This document shows, in pieces, positions 14,354-19,726 of a DNA stretch of 23,126 nucleotides. This DNA comes from a virus. The notes beneath the pieces were generated by a model. That model saw nothing but the letters and a program-made list of their open reading frames with translations. It had not been told where the DNA came from and made no database searches. The position numbers and the translations under genes are program-made. The stretch covers positions 1-23,126 of IMG/VR virus record IMGVR_UViG_3300041809_002661; one strand, written 5' to 3'. Positions within the stretch are counted from its first letter, which is position 1. The number at the start of each line of letters is the position of its first letter.

Positions 14354-14409
14354 GCACCCGTGGGCCCCGTTGCGCCCAGCCCCTCTGCCTGGCGCAAGGC
14401 CACGACCCG

Positions 14410-15240
14410 TCAAGCCGGGGCGTCCTGTGCGCCAGCACCGGCGATCAGGCCAGCGTACGCCGCGAAAAGCGGCAGCCTCCGATCCGATGGCGGGTGGCGC
14501 GCGATCCACAGGCGTTGGACTCGCACCCGGTGCTCGGGCTGGACCCGTTCGATCCACTGCCCGCACGTCAAGGAAGCCTTCCGCGCGTTGCACGGGCGGC
14601 AGACGATCACGATGTTGCGCATGCTGTGCTCGCCCCCGTGACAGACCGCCACCATATGATCCGTCTGCTTCTCGGCGTCTTCGAAGGGGCAATCGCAATA
14701 GGCGCACCGGTGCGCCGCCGTCTTGGCATCCAGAATGCTTTCCTTCGTAACCGTCCCGTCGCACGCCGCAGCGATGCGCGCATTGCGGGTCTGCCCGTAG
14801 ATGCTGACTGCCTCCGGGTGTGCCGCTTTGTACGTCGCCGTTCTGAGCCGTTCCTGCGCCAGGTTTCTCTGGTAGTCGGTCCGCGCCTGCGCCGCTTGCT
14901 CTTTGCGTAGGGCCGATACCACCTCGAGGAACGCCGTGGCAGCGAGCCGATTGAACTCCTTCAACAGGGAACGAACGAAACTGCGACGGATCCGCTTCGC
15001 GGCGTCCTCAACGACCCGCACGGCCGCCCGGTGTGCGGCCAGCCGCTCTCGATCCTCGCGCGGGATATATCCACACAGCGCGCGCCGTTGCTTGGCGGCG
15101 GCCCGCTCGCGTTGGAGACGCTTGTATTCTTTGCCTTGCCAGTAGCCGGGCACCTTGGGCGGCGCGGGTGCCGCCGCCATCCTGGATCGGATCGTCGCCA
15201 TCAGTGCGGCGTGATGCGTCACCTCGTGTGGTTGCGGCAT
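14410..15240 (-). CDS. HNH endonuclease domain protein
   Basis: A 276-residue protein. Residues 30-140 are strongly basic and helical, probably DNA-binding or coiled-coil. The HNH module follows: CAYC (179-182), TDHMVAVCHGG with DH at 194-195, Asn209 in SMRNIVIVC, and CRPCNARK (214-221). All four zinc-binding cysteines and the His/Asn catalytic positions are present. HNH proteins next to terminase genes are common in phages and in HK97-type systems assist cohesive-end cutting; a free-standing homing-type nuclease is the alternative. The start could also be the ATG at 15201. Confidence 0.75.
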   Translation of the reverse strand: MPQPHEVTHHAALMATIRSRMAAAPAPPKVPGYWQGKEYKRLQRERAAAKQRRALCGYIPREDRERLAAHRAAVRVVEDAAKRIRRSFVRSLLKEFNRLAATAFLEVVSALRKEQAAQARTDYQRNLAQERLRTATYKAAHPEAVSIYGQTRNARIAAACDGTVTKESILDAKTAAHRCAYCDCPFEDAEKQTDHMVAVCHGGEHSMRNIVIVCRPCNARKASLTCGQWIERVQPEHRVRVQRLWIARHPPSDRRLPLFAAYAGLIAGAGAQDAPA

Positions 15241-15264: not shown

Positions 15265-16521
15265 TCAGTTGACCGGAGACCGCTTTGCGGCCAAGGCATC
15301 AAACAAATCGCCGGAGGACTCAAGCACCGCATTCCGCCCGACATGCGATTGCCAGCGCCGAACTATCACATCGCAGTAGCACGGCTCCAACTCGATCACC
15401 CGCGCCTGGCGCCCGGCCTTCTCGCACGCGATCAGAGTCGTCCCAGACCCTCCGAACGGGTCCAGCACCGTGTCACGCGTCTTGCTGCTGTTCCGAATTC
15501 CGCGTTCCACCAGTTCGACGGGCTTCATTGTCGGGTGCAGATCGTTAACGTGCGGCTTCTTGATGAACCAGACGTCGCCCTGGTCGCGCGCCCCGCACCA
15601 GAAGTGGTCCGCGCCCTCGCGCCAGCCGTAGAGGATCGGTTCGTACTGCCGCTGGTAGTCCGACCGCCCCATCGTGAAGGTGTTCTTTGCCCACACCACA
15701 AACGTGGACCAGTGGCCGCCGGCCTCGCGGAACACCCGCTGCAGGGTGTGGATCTCCGAGGACGACATGCAGACGTAGATCGCGCCCTTGCAGACCGCCA
15801 CCATGTTCACGCACGCCTCCCGCAGGAACTGCTCGAAGTCGGAGCCGAGGTTATCGTTGGCGATGGGCCGATTCGTGCCCCGAATCTTGTCTTTCATCGT
15901 CGCGCCGTAGTTCACGTTGTACGGTGGATCGCAGAAGACCATGTCGGCGAGGCCGCCTGCCAACACCTTCTCGACATCCGTCATGATCGTGGCGTCGCCG
16001 CACAGCAACCGGTGGTCGCCCAAGATCCAGACATCGCCCGGCACGGTCACAACCGCCGCTTCCGTCTCCGGAACGGCATCCTCGTCGGTCAAACCCTCGC
16101 TGGTTCCTTCTGGACCAGCCAGGATGCTCTCCACTTCGTCTGCGGAGAAGCCGATCAGCTCCAGGTTGAACCCGCTTACGTCGAGGTCCTGCATCTCGAC
16201 GCGCAACATCTCCTCGTCCCAACCCGCGTTTAGCGCGAGCTTGTTGTCGGCCAGAACGAGCGCGCGCCGCTGCGCCTCCGTGAGGTGGCCGAGCACAATC
16301 ACGGGCACCTCGACCATTTTCAATTTGCGCGCGGCCAGCAACCGCGCATGGCCGGCGATAATCACACCGTCCGCGGCAACGAGGACGGGATTTGTCCAGC
16401 CAAACTCGATGATGCTGGCGGCAACCTGGGCGACTTGGGCGTCCGAATGCGTCCTAGAATTCCTCGCGTAAGGAATCAGCCGGTCGATGGGCCACTGCTC
16501 AACTTGGAGAACGGCTGTCAT
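15265..16521 (-). CDS. ParB-like domain fused to DPPY-type DNA adenine methyltransferase
   Basis: A 418-residue protein. Residues 1-100 are a ParB/sulfiredoxin-like domain: IDRLIPYARNSRTHSDAQV, NPVLV and the GHAR motif (57-60), then LADNKLALNAGWD. The methyltransferase has CDPPYNVNYG (DPPY 198-201) before the AdoMet-binding DPFGGSGTT (354-362), the beta-class order, and HPTMKP between them. DPPY points to N6-adenine methylation. The start overlaps the previous gene's stop (ATGA), so it is coupled to the second methyltransferase. No matching restriction nuclease is adjacent. Probable roles are protecting phage DNA from host restriction or marking replication or packaging DNA; the target sequence is unknown. 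Confidence 0.85.
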   Translation of the reverse strand: MTAVLQVEQWPIDRLIPYARNSRTHSDAQVAQVAASIIEFGWTNPVLVAADGVIIAGHARLLAARKLKMVEVPVIVLGHLTEAQRRALVLADNKLALNAGWDEEMLRVEMQDLDVSGFNLELIGFSADEVESILAGPEGTSEGLTDEDAVPETEAAVVTVPGDVWILGDHRLLCGDATIMTDVEKVLAGGLADMVFCDPPYNVNYGATMKDKIRGTNRPIANDNLGSDFEQFLREACVNMVAVCKGAIYVCMSSSEIHTLQRVFREAGGHWSTFVVWAKNTFTMGRSDYQRQYEPILYGWREGADHFWCGARDQGDVWFIKKPHVNDLHPTMKPVELVERGIRNSSKTRDTVLDPFGGSGTTLIACEKAGRQARVIELEPCYCDVIVRRWQSHVGRNAVLESSGDLFDALAAKRSPVN

Positions 16522-18044
16522 GACGCCTTCCTTCGCGGCCCGTAGTGCGGGTTCGGCCCGTGGTGTTTGATGGCGCCCCTGTCCTGCGCCTTGGGGTTCA
16601 ACGCCTGCCCCGGATCGACCCCGCGCGCGGCCGCGATCTTCGCGAACGTCGCGCCCGACTCATGCGTCGCCTCGTTTCCGGTCAAGCTCATCATCCTGTT
16701 CAAGATCACATCGCAGTAGCCAGGCGAGATCTCGCAGCCGTATCCGATCCGGCCCAGCACTTCCGCGGCTGCCATCGTGGTTCCGCTTCCCATGAATGGA
16801 TCGAACACCACATCGCCCGCGTCGGTGAACGCCAGGACGAAAAACTCCACCAGGGCGCGCGGAAACGGAGCGGAGTGCGATCCCTGCGAGGACTCGCTCT
16901 TGACCTCGATCACGTTCGAGGGGCGCGCGATGCCCTCATGCCGCCCGTCCACCAGCTTGCGGCGCATATTTCCCCAACCCTGCGATCCCTCGGGCGGCGA
17001 CGAGGCGGATTCGCCGCGCGGTCCGGTCCCCAGTAAGCCGCTACCAGACTTCGACACCGGATTGTCGGGGGAGTAATCGAAGCAGTCTTCAGACACGTGT
17101 CCAACCGCTTCAGGCCGAAACTTGATCTCCCCTTGGCGGCTGAAGTGGTAGACCGGCTCGAAGGCATTCTTAAACCTGTTCCCCCAACCGCCCGGCACGC
17201 CGTTGTCGGTTTTTCGCCAACAGAATTCGTCCACGAACATCCAACCCCAGAGGCGCTTGTGTGCGATGACCAAGTCGGCCACGTACAAGTTCCGCTCGCC
17301 ATCGTCGGCGTGCGCCTTGATGTTCAGGAAGTACGACCCGTCCGGCGCCAGGATCGACTCGATGCCCGCCGCCACAGCCTGAAACCAGGCGACGTACTCA
17401 GCGGGCGGAATCGGCAGGAACCCACTCGACGGGTCGTATTTTCGCTGCGTGGCGTAGGGCGGCGACGTGATGGCCACGTTCGCCTGCGCCGGCCCGAATA
17501 ACGCGCGAATGATACTCGCGTCCCTGCAATCGCCGCACACCAGGCGGTGCGCCCCAATCTGCCAGATGTCGCCGGGTTGCGTGACGGGCGTCGCCGGAGG
17601 CTCGGGAACGACCTCGGGCGCTTCCTCGACCGGTGCCTCGTCGCCGGGCAGCAATACTTCCAGTTCGGCGGTGGTGAAGCCGATCAGCGCAAGATCCACG
17701 CCGGCCAGCGTCAAGTCGCCGAGTTCCTCCGCGAGGAGCTTCTCGTCCCAACCAGCATTCAACGCCAGCTTATTGTCGGCGATGATGTAGGCGCGCCTCT
17801 GAGCGTCGGTGAGGTGATCGAGCACCACCACCGGCACTTCTGCCAGGCCCAACTGCCGCGCCGCCAGCAGCCGACCGTGACCGGCGATGATTCCGTCGTT
17901 GCTGTCGACGAGGACCGGGTTCACAAACCCGAACTCGACGATGGACGCTGCGATCTGCGCCACCTGTGCGTCCGAGTGCGTCCGGGCGTTCTTGGCGTAG
18001 GGCCGCAGCCGCTCGGTCGGCCAAATCTCGATGTTGCGAGCCAT
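16518..18044 (-). CDS. ParB-like domain fused to SPPY-type DNA methyltransferase (probably N4-cytosine)
   Basis: A 508-residue protein from the ATG at 18044 (MARNIEIWPTERL); the longer frame to 18107 reads over the preceding small ORF. Residues 1-100 are ParB-like, with NPVLVDSNDGIIAGHGRLL and ADNKLALNAGWD, and are closely similar to the next gene's N-terminus. A Glu/Pro-rich linker (134-158) leads to the methyltransferase: TSPPY (193-197), a long insertion (200-405) that probably recognises the target, and DPFMGSGTT (415-423). SPPY with this order is typical of N4-cytosine enzymes, though some methylate adenine. It has the same neighbours and likely the same protective role as the DPPY enzyme, with a different specificity. 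Confidence 0.83.
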   Translation of the reverse strand: MARNIEIWPTERLRPYAKNARTHSDAQVAQIAASIVEFGFVNPVLVDSNDGIIAGHGRLLAARQLGLAEVPVVVLDHLTDAQRRAYIIADNKLALNAGWDEKLLAEELGDLTLAGVDLALIGFTTAELEVLLPGDEAPVEEAPEVVPEPPATPVTQPGDIWQIGAHRLVCGDCRDASIIRALFGPAQANVAITSPPYATQRKYDPSSGFLPIPPAEYVAWFQAVAAGIESILAPDGSYFLNIKAHADDGERNLYVADLVIAHKRLWGWMFVDEFCWRKTDNGVPGGWGNRFKNAFEPVYHFSRQGEIKFRPEAVGHVSEDCFDYSPDNPVSKSGSGLLGTGPRGESASSPPEGSQGWGNMRRKLVDGRHEGIARPSNVIEVKSESSQGSHSAPFPRALVEFFVLAFTDAGDVVFDPFMGSGTTMAAAEVLGRIGYGCEISPGYCDVILNRMMSLTGNEATHESGATFAKIAAARGVDPGQALNPKAQDRGAIKHHGPNPHYGPRRKAS

Positions 18045-18055
18045 CGCGGGCGTAA

Positions 18056-18214
18056 TCACTGTTGCGGCCTCTGAGTGGCCTGCGCTGTGGGAACAACCAC
18101 GACGCATAGGTCGGGAAGGCCCAGCAGGCGAGCCGCCAGAAGGCGGCAGTGGCCGGCAATCACTACGCCCGCGGAGTCCACGATGATCGGGTTCTCTGCC
18201 AGGGAAGTCGTCAT
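18056..18214 (-). CDS. Short ParB-like fragment (52 residues)
   Basis: An ATG at 18214 opens 52 codons ending with TGA at 18058-18056, twelve bases before the next start. The translation contains NPIIVDSAGVVIAGHCRLL and then AARLLGLPDL, which lines up with the NPVLVDS...GIIAGHGRLLAARQLGL segment of the downstream methyltransferase. It covers only that ParB core, with no DNA-binding helix or methyltransferase. It is either a very small stand-alone ParB-like protein or the remnant of a third duplicated copy. In the GH-R motif the usual Gly/Ala is replaced by Cys. Confidence 0.55.
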   Translation of the reverse strand: MTTSLAENPIIVDSAGVVIAGHCRLLAARLLGLPDLCVVVVPTAQATQRPQQ

Positions 18215-18232: not shown

Positions 18233-18490
18233 TTAACTGGCAGGGTTGGGGGCGCTGGACGGTACCTTGGCGGCGGTGGCCGCCGCGATCAGTTCATCCA
18301 GCACGGCGTTGAACGCCGTGGCGGCGTCGCCTTCCGTCTGGTCTGCCGACTGCTTGCCGGCGACGGCGGCGTCGTACTTCGCCTGCGCCGCCTGCTGGCT
18401 ACTTTCGGCATTCGTGAGAGTCGTCTGCGCGCTCTCCACATCCGAGATTGCTTGTGCCAAACTCGGCGTGGTCGTTCCTGTCGGTGTCAT
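18233..18490 (-). CDS. Small coiled-coil protein, unknown
   Basis: This 85-residue protein is preceded by GGGAGG eleven bases before the ATG. After a Thr/Pro-rich start, residues 10-75 are almost purely Ala/Gln/Ser/Asp/Glu with heptad-like spacing (AISDVESAQTTLTNAESSQQ), predicting one long helix or coiled coil. The tail is KVPSSAPNPAS. There is no membrane segment. Such proteins near phage morphogenesis genes can be scaffold-like, but I do not recognise it. Confidence 0.6.
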   Translation of the reverse strand: MTPTGTTTPSLAQAISDVESAQTTLTNAESSQQAAQAKYDAAVAGKQSADQTEGDAATAFNAVLDELIAAATAAKVPSSAPNPAS

Positions 18491-18521: not shown

Positions 18522-18551
18522 ACGCCGCCAAGGATCGCTCCGTGGCGGCGT
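18522..18551 (-). terminator. Perfect 8-bp hairpin followed by a T-rich run; possible terminator or processing site
   Basis: ACGCCGCC (18522-18529) and GGCGGCGT (18544-18551) are exact inverted repeats with a 14-base loop. On the minus strand the stem is followed by TTTCGATTTAT. It separates the tRNA-like gene from the coiled-coil gene, so it may attenuate the late transcript or help release the tRNA-like RNA. The interrupted T-run makes it a weak terminator. Confidence 0.45.
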
Positions 18552-18569: not shown

Positions 18570-18630
18570 GGGCGGGGGCTGTATTCGAACCAGCGGCTTG
18601 CGGATTATGAGCCTGCCGCGCTACCCCGCG
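18570..18630 (-). tRNA. Shortened initiator-like tRNA, anticodon CAU, lacking a D-arm
   Basis: The minus strand reads CGCGGGG at the 5' end and CCCCGCC at the 3' end, giving a six-pair acceptor stem with an unpaired C1:C72, reminiscent of the C1:A72 mismatch of bacterial initiator tRNA. The anticodon loop is CTCATAA (CAU), on a stem with an A-C mismatch and a G-T pair. The variable loop has five bases, and the T loop is TTCGAAT with one mismatch in the stem. Only seven bases separate the acceptor and anticodon stems, so the D-arm is missing: total length 61 instead of about 76. No CCA is encoded. It is either a decayed phage tRNA gene or an unusual functional one; standard tRNA scanners may miss it. 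Confidence 0.6.
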
Positions 18631-18643
18631 AATGAATCGTTTC

Positions 18644-18994
18644 TCACGCCGCCGTCATGCAATCCAGCACCACGCGCAGGAAGATCGGCCGCACAGCGTC
18701 CGGCGCCAGATCGCGCTCCTCGCGCGGGTTGTCGCCCAGCGGGCGCAGGCGGAAGCAATAGTGGCCGTCTTTGAGGTGCTGCCGGAACGAGTACTTCGTC
18801 CCACTGTAATCGGTTAGGAACGAAGGGCGCGACTCGCCGGGCCGCTGGCACAGGTTGACCCGCGAGATGCGGCCCGAACGCCGTTTGTGGACGCGCGCGA
18901 CGTTCCCGCTCGCGACCAGGCGCGCGAGGCGCTTTTCGTCGATCCACTGAACCAGTGCGCCGTCGCAACTGTAGACGGCAATATTGCGCTCCAT
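18644..18994 (-). CDS. Unknown phage protein, first gene of the leftward operon
   Basis: A 116-residue protein. I prefer the ATG at 18994 because GAGG lies eight bases upstream; a GTG at 19033 would add 13 residues but lacks a site. Residues 1-45 (MERNIAVYSCDGALVQWIDE then KRLARLVASGNVARV) look like a small alpha/beta fold, followed by a basic KRRSGRISRVNLC. Later come SFLTDYSGTKYSFRQHL and a YCFRLRPLGDN strand. It has the look of a small phage protein with nucleic-acid-binding character, but I do not recognise it. It starts about 120 bases downstream of a good promoter. Confidence 0.6.
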   Translation of the reverse strand: MERNIAVYSCDGALVQWIDEKRLARLVASGNVARVHKRRSGRISRVNLCQRPGESRPSFLTDYSGTKYSFRQHLKDGHYCFRLRPLGDNPREERDLAPDAVRPIFLRVVLDCMTAA

Positions 18995-19121
18995 GATGAT
19001 GGCCTCGGTGGTGAAATTGGGTGACTCGGACACACTTCGTGGAAAGGAATGCGGGAGAGGGTTGTTATCGAAGCGTCCCGGCGCTCCGCTATGAGAAGGG
19101 GCGAGTCCCTGTGCCCTAGGG

Positions 19122-19258: not shown

Positions 19259-19578
19259 TGCGCGTGGTGCGCGTGGCCGGAAAGCTTGTGTTGTCGCACT
19301 ACAACAACAAGCGCATCCACGGTCACCATCCACCCCATCCGCACCAAGACCTTGACGACGAGGCGGATAGTCCGACGAGCACCGATACCACATCCACACC
19401 GGCCCAGTTTGGGAGCAATGCGCGCAGTGCGCACGGCCGGAAAAACGGGTGGGTCTATAGGAGGATTTCAAATGTTGTCGTACCACAACAACAAGCACCG
19501 TTACGGTTACCATCGATACCATCCGTACCAACTCGTTGATTACAAGTCAGGTAGGATAACCAACACCGATACCACATC
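19259..19578 (+). repeat. Diverged tandem repeat, unit about 184 bp, two copies
   Basis: Three markers recur. The 25-base block TGCGCG..GTGCGC..GGCCGGAAA occurs at 19259-19283 and 19419-19443 (21 of 25 identical). A dyad GTTGTCGYACYACAAC type occurs at 19290-19305 and 19474-19489. CACCGATACCACATC is identical at 19380-19394 and 19564-19578. The last two pairs are both 184 bp apart; the first is 160 bp apart because the second copy carries 24 extra bases with CTATAGGAGGATTTCAA. Differences are mostly C/T changes that swap His and Tyr codons in one frame. Confidence 0.65.
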
Positions 19579-19684
19579 AGTACCGGAGGCAGCTTGGAAC
19601 TTCACTTGCATCGCGTACGCGCGCGGTTGCAGGAGCTTTCTAAATGTCGTTGTAGTACAACAACATTTGAATTCCTCCTATAGA
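19454..19684 (+). repeat. 231-bp element with 39-bp terminal inverted repeats (MITE-like)
   Basis: The left end 19454-19492 and the reverse complement of the right end 19684-19646 agree at 35 of 39 positions, beginning TCTATAGGAGGA. Each end contains a ribosome binding site, an ATG and the palindrome GTTGTNGTACNACAAC (left 19474-19489, right 19649-19664). There is no transposase inside and no clear target-site duplication. The left end is shared with the second unit of the tandem repeat. A non-autonomous mobile element is one reading; a regulatory dyad pair is another. The rest of the stretch 18,995-19,865 holds only a promoter candidate, these repeats and a short CGGCATGTGGC direct repeat at 19731 and 19744. 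Confidence 0.55.
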
Positions 19685-19726
19685 GACACCGCTATTTCGG
19701 CCCCACCTGTGCCAGGGGCGATGTGA
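19472..19726 (+). CDS. Possible small Tyr/His-rich protein (84 residues) inside the repeat element
   Basis: An excellent ribosome binding site (AGGAGG, seven bases before the ATG at 19472) precedes MLSYHNNKHRYGYHRYHPYQ, a remarkably Tyr/His/Asn-rich start, followed by a TNTDTTSVPEA segment. The upstream repeat copy encodes a parallel GTG-started frame (19288-19539) whose first 40 residues align, with LSHYNNK and TSTDTTS in the same places, but without the strong site. The right inverted end encodes only MLLYYNDI then stop on the minus strand. The residues after about 45 are not shared. It may be a genuine small-protein family or a by-product of the repeats. Confidence 0.3.
   Translation: MLSYHNNKHRYGYHRYHPYQLVDYKSGRITNTDTTSVPEAAWNFTCIAYARGCRSFLNVVVVQQHLNSSYRDTAISAPPVPGAM

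Follow-up and report, generated by a model that had tools for sequence, protein, structure and literature searches.

The window, by which we mean the whole 23,126-nt stretch of virus record IMGVR_UViG_3300041809_002661 that we analysed, contains a short tRNA-like element with a CAU anticodon and no D-arm (Table 1). A preliminary description had placed this element inside a phage operon, and the neighbouring genes bear this out. The stop codon of a 129-aa ORF lies 13 nt ahead of the element, and further down the same strand are two ParB/DNA-methyltransferase genes, an HNH nuclease, a terminase (gpA type), a portal, and a capsid protease. The two methyltransferase genes are adjacent (15265-18107), and in each of them an N6/N4 DNA methyltransferase is joined to an N-terminal part that resembles ParB. 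The hairpin downstream of the element (I11) forms in the predicted fold of the element with its flanks. It is not among the results of our terminator scan, which gave one terminator-like site, away from the element; the promoter scan gave no promoter.

Using tblastn, we found homologues of the 129-aa protein upstream of a methyltransferase in 40 of the 167 collected loci, although peptide patterns for this protein matched nothing in the viral contigs. Because portal relatives lie in 13 loci from genome contigs whose titles name Acidobacteria, Acidobacteriia, Terriglobia or Bryobacterales, the sequences suggest that the hosts are Acidobacteria. Elsewhere in the window, the intergenic stretch 19275-19703 holds direct repeats of 114 nt that are 74% alike at a spacing of 184, a 35-nt unit present three times, and a 59-nt inverted repeat (81% complementary). 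At 14387-14457 there is a weak match to the Twister-sister ribozyme (26.6 bits, with a gathering score of 34), which most likely arose by chance.

Table 1. The tRNA-like element, its parts, and the adjacent features of the window.
Feature	Position	Strand	Basis or remark
tRNA-like element, D-armless, 61 nt, CAU anticodon (probable tRNA pseudogene)	18570..18630	-	RF00005 27.5 bits; phage tRNA-Met likeness
Acceptor 5' strand CGCGGGG, C1 unpaired	18624..18630	-	sequence and cmscan alignment
GGTAGCGC, single copy, putative deletion junction	18618..18625	-	compared with two copies 13 nt apart in intact phage tRNA L298
Anticodon arm GCAGG-CTCATAA-TCCGC, A29.C41 mismatch, G31.U39	18600..18616	-	
T-arm GCTGG-TTCGAAT-ACAGC, G53.A61 mismatch	18578..18594	-	sequence, cmscan alignment, CAU tRNA comparison
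Acceptor 3' strand CCCCGCC, then no CCA	18571..18577	-	sequence
129-aa ORF, just upstream, conserved in relatives	18644..19033	-	no Pfam/PHROG family
Inverted repeat I11, 13 bp, 4-nt loop, terminator-like hairpin	18522..18551	-	18 nt downstream of element
85-aa ORF downstream, GGGAGG before ATG	18233..18490	-	no homologue among collected loci
ParB-N / N6-N4 DNA methyltransferase, start of packaging operon	16518..18107	-	

Read along the minus strand from 18630 to 18570, the 5' half of the element is CGCGGGG-TAGCGC-G-GCAGG-CTCATAA-TCCGC, and AAGCC-GCTGG-TTCGAAT-ACAGC-CCCCGCC-C follows. The parts that had been described before are all there: an acceptor stem (6 bp, GCGGGG/CCCCGC) with an unpaired first base (C1.C72), a CAU anticodon in the loop CTCATAA, a variable loop of five bases (AAGCC), and the T-loop TTCGAAT. 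The D-arm is indeed gone, as the Infernal alignment skips it and alignments to intact tRNAs show a 13-nt gap.

Infernal, which the preliminary description had proposed as a check, aligned the element to the complete model of the tRNA family RF00005, passing over 11 D-arm positions. The score of 27.5 bits falls below the gathering score of 29 bits (E = 0.055 over all 4227 Rfam families, or 1.3e-5 for RF00005 alone on the window record). ARAGORN found no tRNA genes in the window. When we compared the surrounding 501 nt to 50,697 phage records with blastn, the lowest E value was 8e-5, for two records that match without gaps at 81.5% over 54 nt. In both of these records, ARAGORN identifies a normal D-armed tRNA-Met at the matched place, and the remaining matches listed are mostly annotated tRNA-Met. 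Because these ungapped matches fall on D-armed tRNA-Met genes, the likeness of the element to a tRNA is more than chance. The ungapped match starts at GGTAGC, which is D-loop plus 3' D-strand in the intact genes, and therefore a stretch of the D-arm is missing, rather than the element having an odd small D-arm. We also considered whether the element belongs to a tRNA of full length whose 5' end has been displaced, but by eye there is no acceptor strand at the right distance in the 5' flank, and ARAGORN reports no such tRNA. The element is tRNA-derived.

The parent was not necessarily an initiator tRNA. Bacterial initiator tRNAs are marked by a mismatch at 1.72, by A11-U24 in the D-stem, and by GGG/CCC at 29-31/39-41. 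The element has no Watson-Crick pair at 1-72, but it has AGG/UCC instead of GGG/CCC; A11-U24 is absent, since the 5' D-strand is deleted and the remaining 3' strand (GCGC) has G24. Of the earlier label "initiator-like," then, the 1.72 mismatch and the acceptor hold up and the GGG/CCC run and U24 do not, and these features support the label weakly. Still, a similar acceptor occurs together with a GCGC 3' D-strand in five CAU tRNAs of our comparison set, so the parent may have been of the initiator type. The tRNA matches in 8 Acidobacteria genomes and in 151 genomes of the class were ordinary CAU tRNAs with 72-82% identity, and the nearest Acidobacteria genes, as judged by eye, were Ile2-like, Met-like and fMet CAU tRNAs.

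We propose, with a probability of roughly 0.8, that the element is the decayed pseudogene of a phage-borne CAU tRNA. The closest genes of this kind are the CAU tRNA genes of Pseudanabaena phage Pan5, of Mycobacterium phage Myrna, and of three viral loci (L219, L298, and L205), with up to 82% identity. They share the loop CTCATAA and the T-loop with the element, and most of them the acceptor GCGGGG. Unlike the element, they keep the D-arm, the G53-C61 pair and usually the full anticodon stem; in the element the D-arm is missing and two stem pairs are broken.

These and other CAU tRNAs indicate how the D-arm may have been lost. Among the 709 ARAGORN tRNAs in the collected loci are 174 CAU tRNAs, which are not a random sample because many loci were picked by a D-armed CAU pattern. 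Aligning the element to each of the 174 most commonly gave a single 13-nt gap (33 cases); other outcomes were one 11-nt gap (25), one 12-nt gap (18), or no gap (16). With the intact CAU tRNA of viral contig L219, 50 of the 61 positions are identical and there is a single 13-nt gap. The intact phage tRNA of L298, which has the same CGCGGGG acceptor, contains GGTAGCGC twice, offset by 13 nt, behind the same CGCGG start, and this pair of repeats sits where the gap of the element falls. The first 14 letters of the element equal the L298 type minus one repeat unit. (This reading of the L298 repeat is our own, because the aligner split the L298 gap into two pieces, with 49 of 61 positions identical.) L205 has GTAGCGC twice at a 13-nt offset, and TAGCGCGGCAGGCTCATAATC is common to L205 and the element. 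Among 158 distinct CAU tRNAs, 43 carry a direct repeat of at least 5 nt across the D-arm, as compared to about 11% of shuffles.

We infer that the parent was a normal 74-nt tRNA gene (not counting CCA) with GGTAGCGC...GGTAGCGC or a similar direct repeat across its D-arm, and that one 13-nt repeat unit was lost by slippage or short-homology recombination. The 5' D-stem would have disappeared with this unit, along with most of the D-loop. Without its elbow, the RNA could presumably no longer act as a tRNA, and the further hits in the T-stem, the anticodon stem and the 3' end may have come afterwards. Some points go against the pseudogene reading. First, the best intact matches belong to other phages and share about 79-82% of the 61 nt with the element, so none of them is likely to be the direct parent. 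Second, the 6-bp acceptor helix and four of the five T-stem pairs are still intact.

The preliminary description did not mention that the stems are damaged, that CCA is absent, or that the predicted fold differs from a cloverleaf. Position 53-61 is G-C in all 122 CAU tRNAs with a scorable T-arm, but G.A in the element. The anticodon stem has the A29.C41 mismatch along with G31.U39, and A29.C41 alone is not rare, because 26 of 164 scored CAU tRNAs have one anticodon-stem mismatch (137 have none and one has two). The best predicted fold of the element is not a cloverleaf: it pairs GCGGC with GCCGC, at -23.4 kcal/mol, as compared to -15.9 for the D-armless cloverleaf. The mean anticodon-pair probability is 0.0015 in the element, versus a mean of 0.62 across 148 CAU tRNAs; values as low or lower occur in two of the 148. 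Since these two are intact, folding predictions for unmodified RNA are a weak guide. Together, we would expect the lesions to disable the element as a tRNA.

Among the records searched, the element also appears to be confined to this virus. The preliminary description had suggested looking for the same element in relatives, and we found it in none of 48 related records or 40 equivalent intervals. In the RF00005 scan, which took in the 48 records and left 21 further entries aside, five had a tRNA above the cut-off and one had a weak match only. The 40 intervals follow the same upstream gene: they come from the loci with a homologue of the 129-aa protein upstream of the methyltransferase, some of which share a contig. 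(Queries with the portal and the methyltransferase had given 160 loci from viral contigs.) ARAGORN tRNAs were absent from 39 of the 40 intervals, and the other one, in L105, has a normal tRNA-Thr. The interval that holds the element is variable, with a conserved small gene on one side and the methyltransferase gene on the other. In L105, the intact tRNA-Thr(CGT) lies directly before the methyltransferase match (1674-1749), with a tRNA-Val further upstream. For L005, L006, and L012, the nearest relatives as judged from portal or tail proteins, the contigs stop short of the interval, so that the comparison covers less closely related phages.

We also scanned the 167 loci with relaxed geometric rules. 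Besides the element in the window, this gave nine matches in nine loci, and only the match in L166 had a CAU loop. A tight pattern for the same D-armless element had no match in the IMG/VR viral contigs, and neither did a long pattern for the parent. A shorter parent pattern matched two stretches in viral contigs: L205, with its intact tRNA, and L204, where ARAGORN finds no tRNA.

The element might instead be, or have been, the attP or attR site of a phage or satellite whose tyrosine integrase targets a CAU tRNA gene of the host. Its 3' part would then be a copy of the host tRNA, and its 5' part would be phage sequence. An integration remnant was also raised in the preliminary description. Attachment sites in tRNA genes do leave tRNA fragments in phage DNA, as an excerpt of PMC4383910 describes (Islander; tRNA-dependent lysogeny). 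When we searched for further D-armless CAU elements with this acceptor, the pattern matched four viral stretches, as compared to at least 120 for the D-armed pattern, and all four look like integrase attachment sites. L165 and L167 have a PF00589 integrase gene within about 300 nt, the element of L166 runs into the start of such a gene, and the flanks of L168 are those of L165 and L167. From the anticodon stem to CCA, L166 is identical by eye to the fMet genes of Acidobacteria (L198-L200). An integrase was above the cut-off in 11 of the 33 relatives searched. Yet PF00589 has no match in the 23-kb window record, which may be a fragment, and there is no integrase among 20 window ORFs compared to PHROGs or 10 compared to Pfam. 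The element has the packaging operon as its neighbour rather than an integrase. Its tRNA likeness does not just run from the anticodon to the 3' end but continues 5' through the D-loop (GGTAGC) and the 3' D-strand. The G53.A61 mismatch would damage a host tRNA, and the 3' half, even with position 61 free and position 39 as C or T, has no match in genome_contigs (84,980 species). We therefore consider an attachment site unlikely, and less likely than a decayed phage tRNA.

The four attachment-like elements have features of their own. The one in L166 (2127-2190; IMGVR_UViG_3300000651_000002) has a reduced D-arm, full anticodon and T stems, and CCA. It scores 45 bits with RF00005, above the cut-off, and looks like an fMet attachment site; a second integrase and an ORF with a TIR domain lie near it. 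The other three (L165:4162-4215, L167:1694-1747, and L168:304-357) form a conserved D-armless CAU element in related phage loci, near a phage RNA polymerase gene in L165 and L168. Their T-stems differ by compensatory changes, as expected if each copies the tRNA of its own host. L165 and L167 also contain type II hammerhead ribozymes above the gathering score (L165:495-564, L167:6806-6870, and L167:5420-5491). Two related phage records have three consecutive tyrosine recombinase genes (G038:C1:6971-9323 and G047:C1:11624-13976).

It is more doubtful still that the element encodes a selected, working D-armless RNA, such as a decoy for initiator-binding factors, a synthetase or host nucleases. 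The acceptor helix and the anticodon loop are intact, and the element is flanked by two ORFs of the same orientation and followed by a hairpin. According to PMC11555353, phage tRNAs can counter tRNA-targeting defences, which we count in favour of this idea. But the element is found in one contig only, it has two stem mismatches and no CCA, its predicted fold is not a cloverleaf, and this fold has no extra stability beyond shuffles (z of -0.94, or -0.48 with flanks). No searched relative keeps the element, and the earlier suggestion of a decoy or regulatory copy of initiator tRNA is not supported by the data and is less likely than a decayed gene. The specific version, in which an Acidobacteria phage expresses an elbow-less CAU decoy for tRNA-binding host factors or tRNA-cleaving defences, we regard as very unlikely. 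The junction is a short direct repeat in a single virus record, so an intact tRNA gene might have collapsed at the repeat during metagenome assembly. But at about 8 nt, the repeat is much shorter than sequencing reads or assembly words, and the mismatches in the stems have nothing to do with the gap. An assembly or sequencing artefact is the least probable explanation, again below a decayed phage tRNA.

Decayed tRNA genes have precedents in phages: tRNA pseudogenes are mentioned in excerpts on phage XacN1 (PMC5852040) and on T4-like phages (PMC1524935), and these, as far as the excerpts describe them, are like the element in being decayed tRNA-like sequences in a phage genome. The D-armless tRNAs of metazoan mitochondria are also short, but they are organellar and served by adapted factors, and an excerpt of the same source calls bacterial tRNA genes surprisingly uniform (PMC4033280). 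Unlike those tRNAs, the element is not conserved. Our literature search, in which subscription journals were mostly missing, returned no report of D-armless phage tRNAs.

We conclude that the element of this soil phage is probably a broken gene of the ordinary sort and not a novel type of RNA. As a pseudogene, the element is of little importance; should it prove to be expressed and functional, it would count as a very unusual D-armless tRNA of the bacterial type. Because the four other D-armless CAU elements look like attachment sites, such calls need care: D-armless CAU "tRNAs" in viral contigs may be decay relics or attachment sites. The element shows how a phage tRNA gene could drop its D-arm in one step, via a repeat that some tRNAs carry across this arm.
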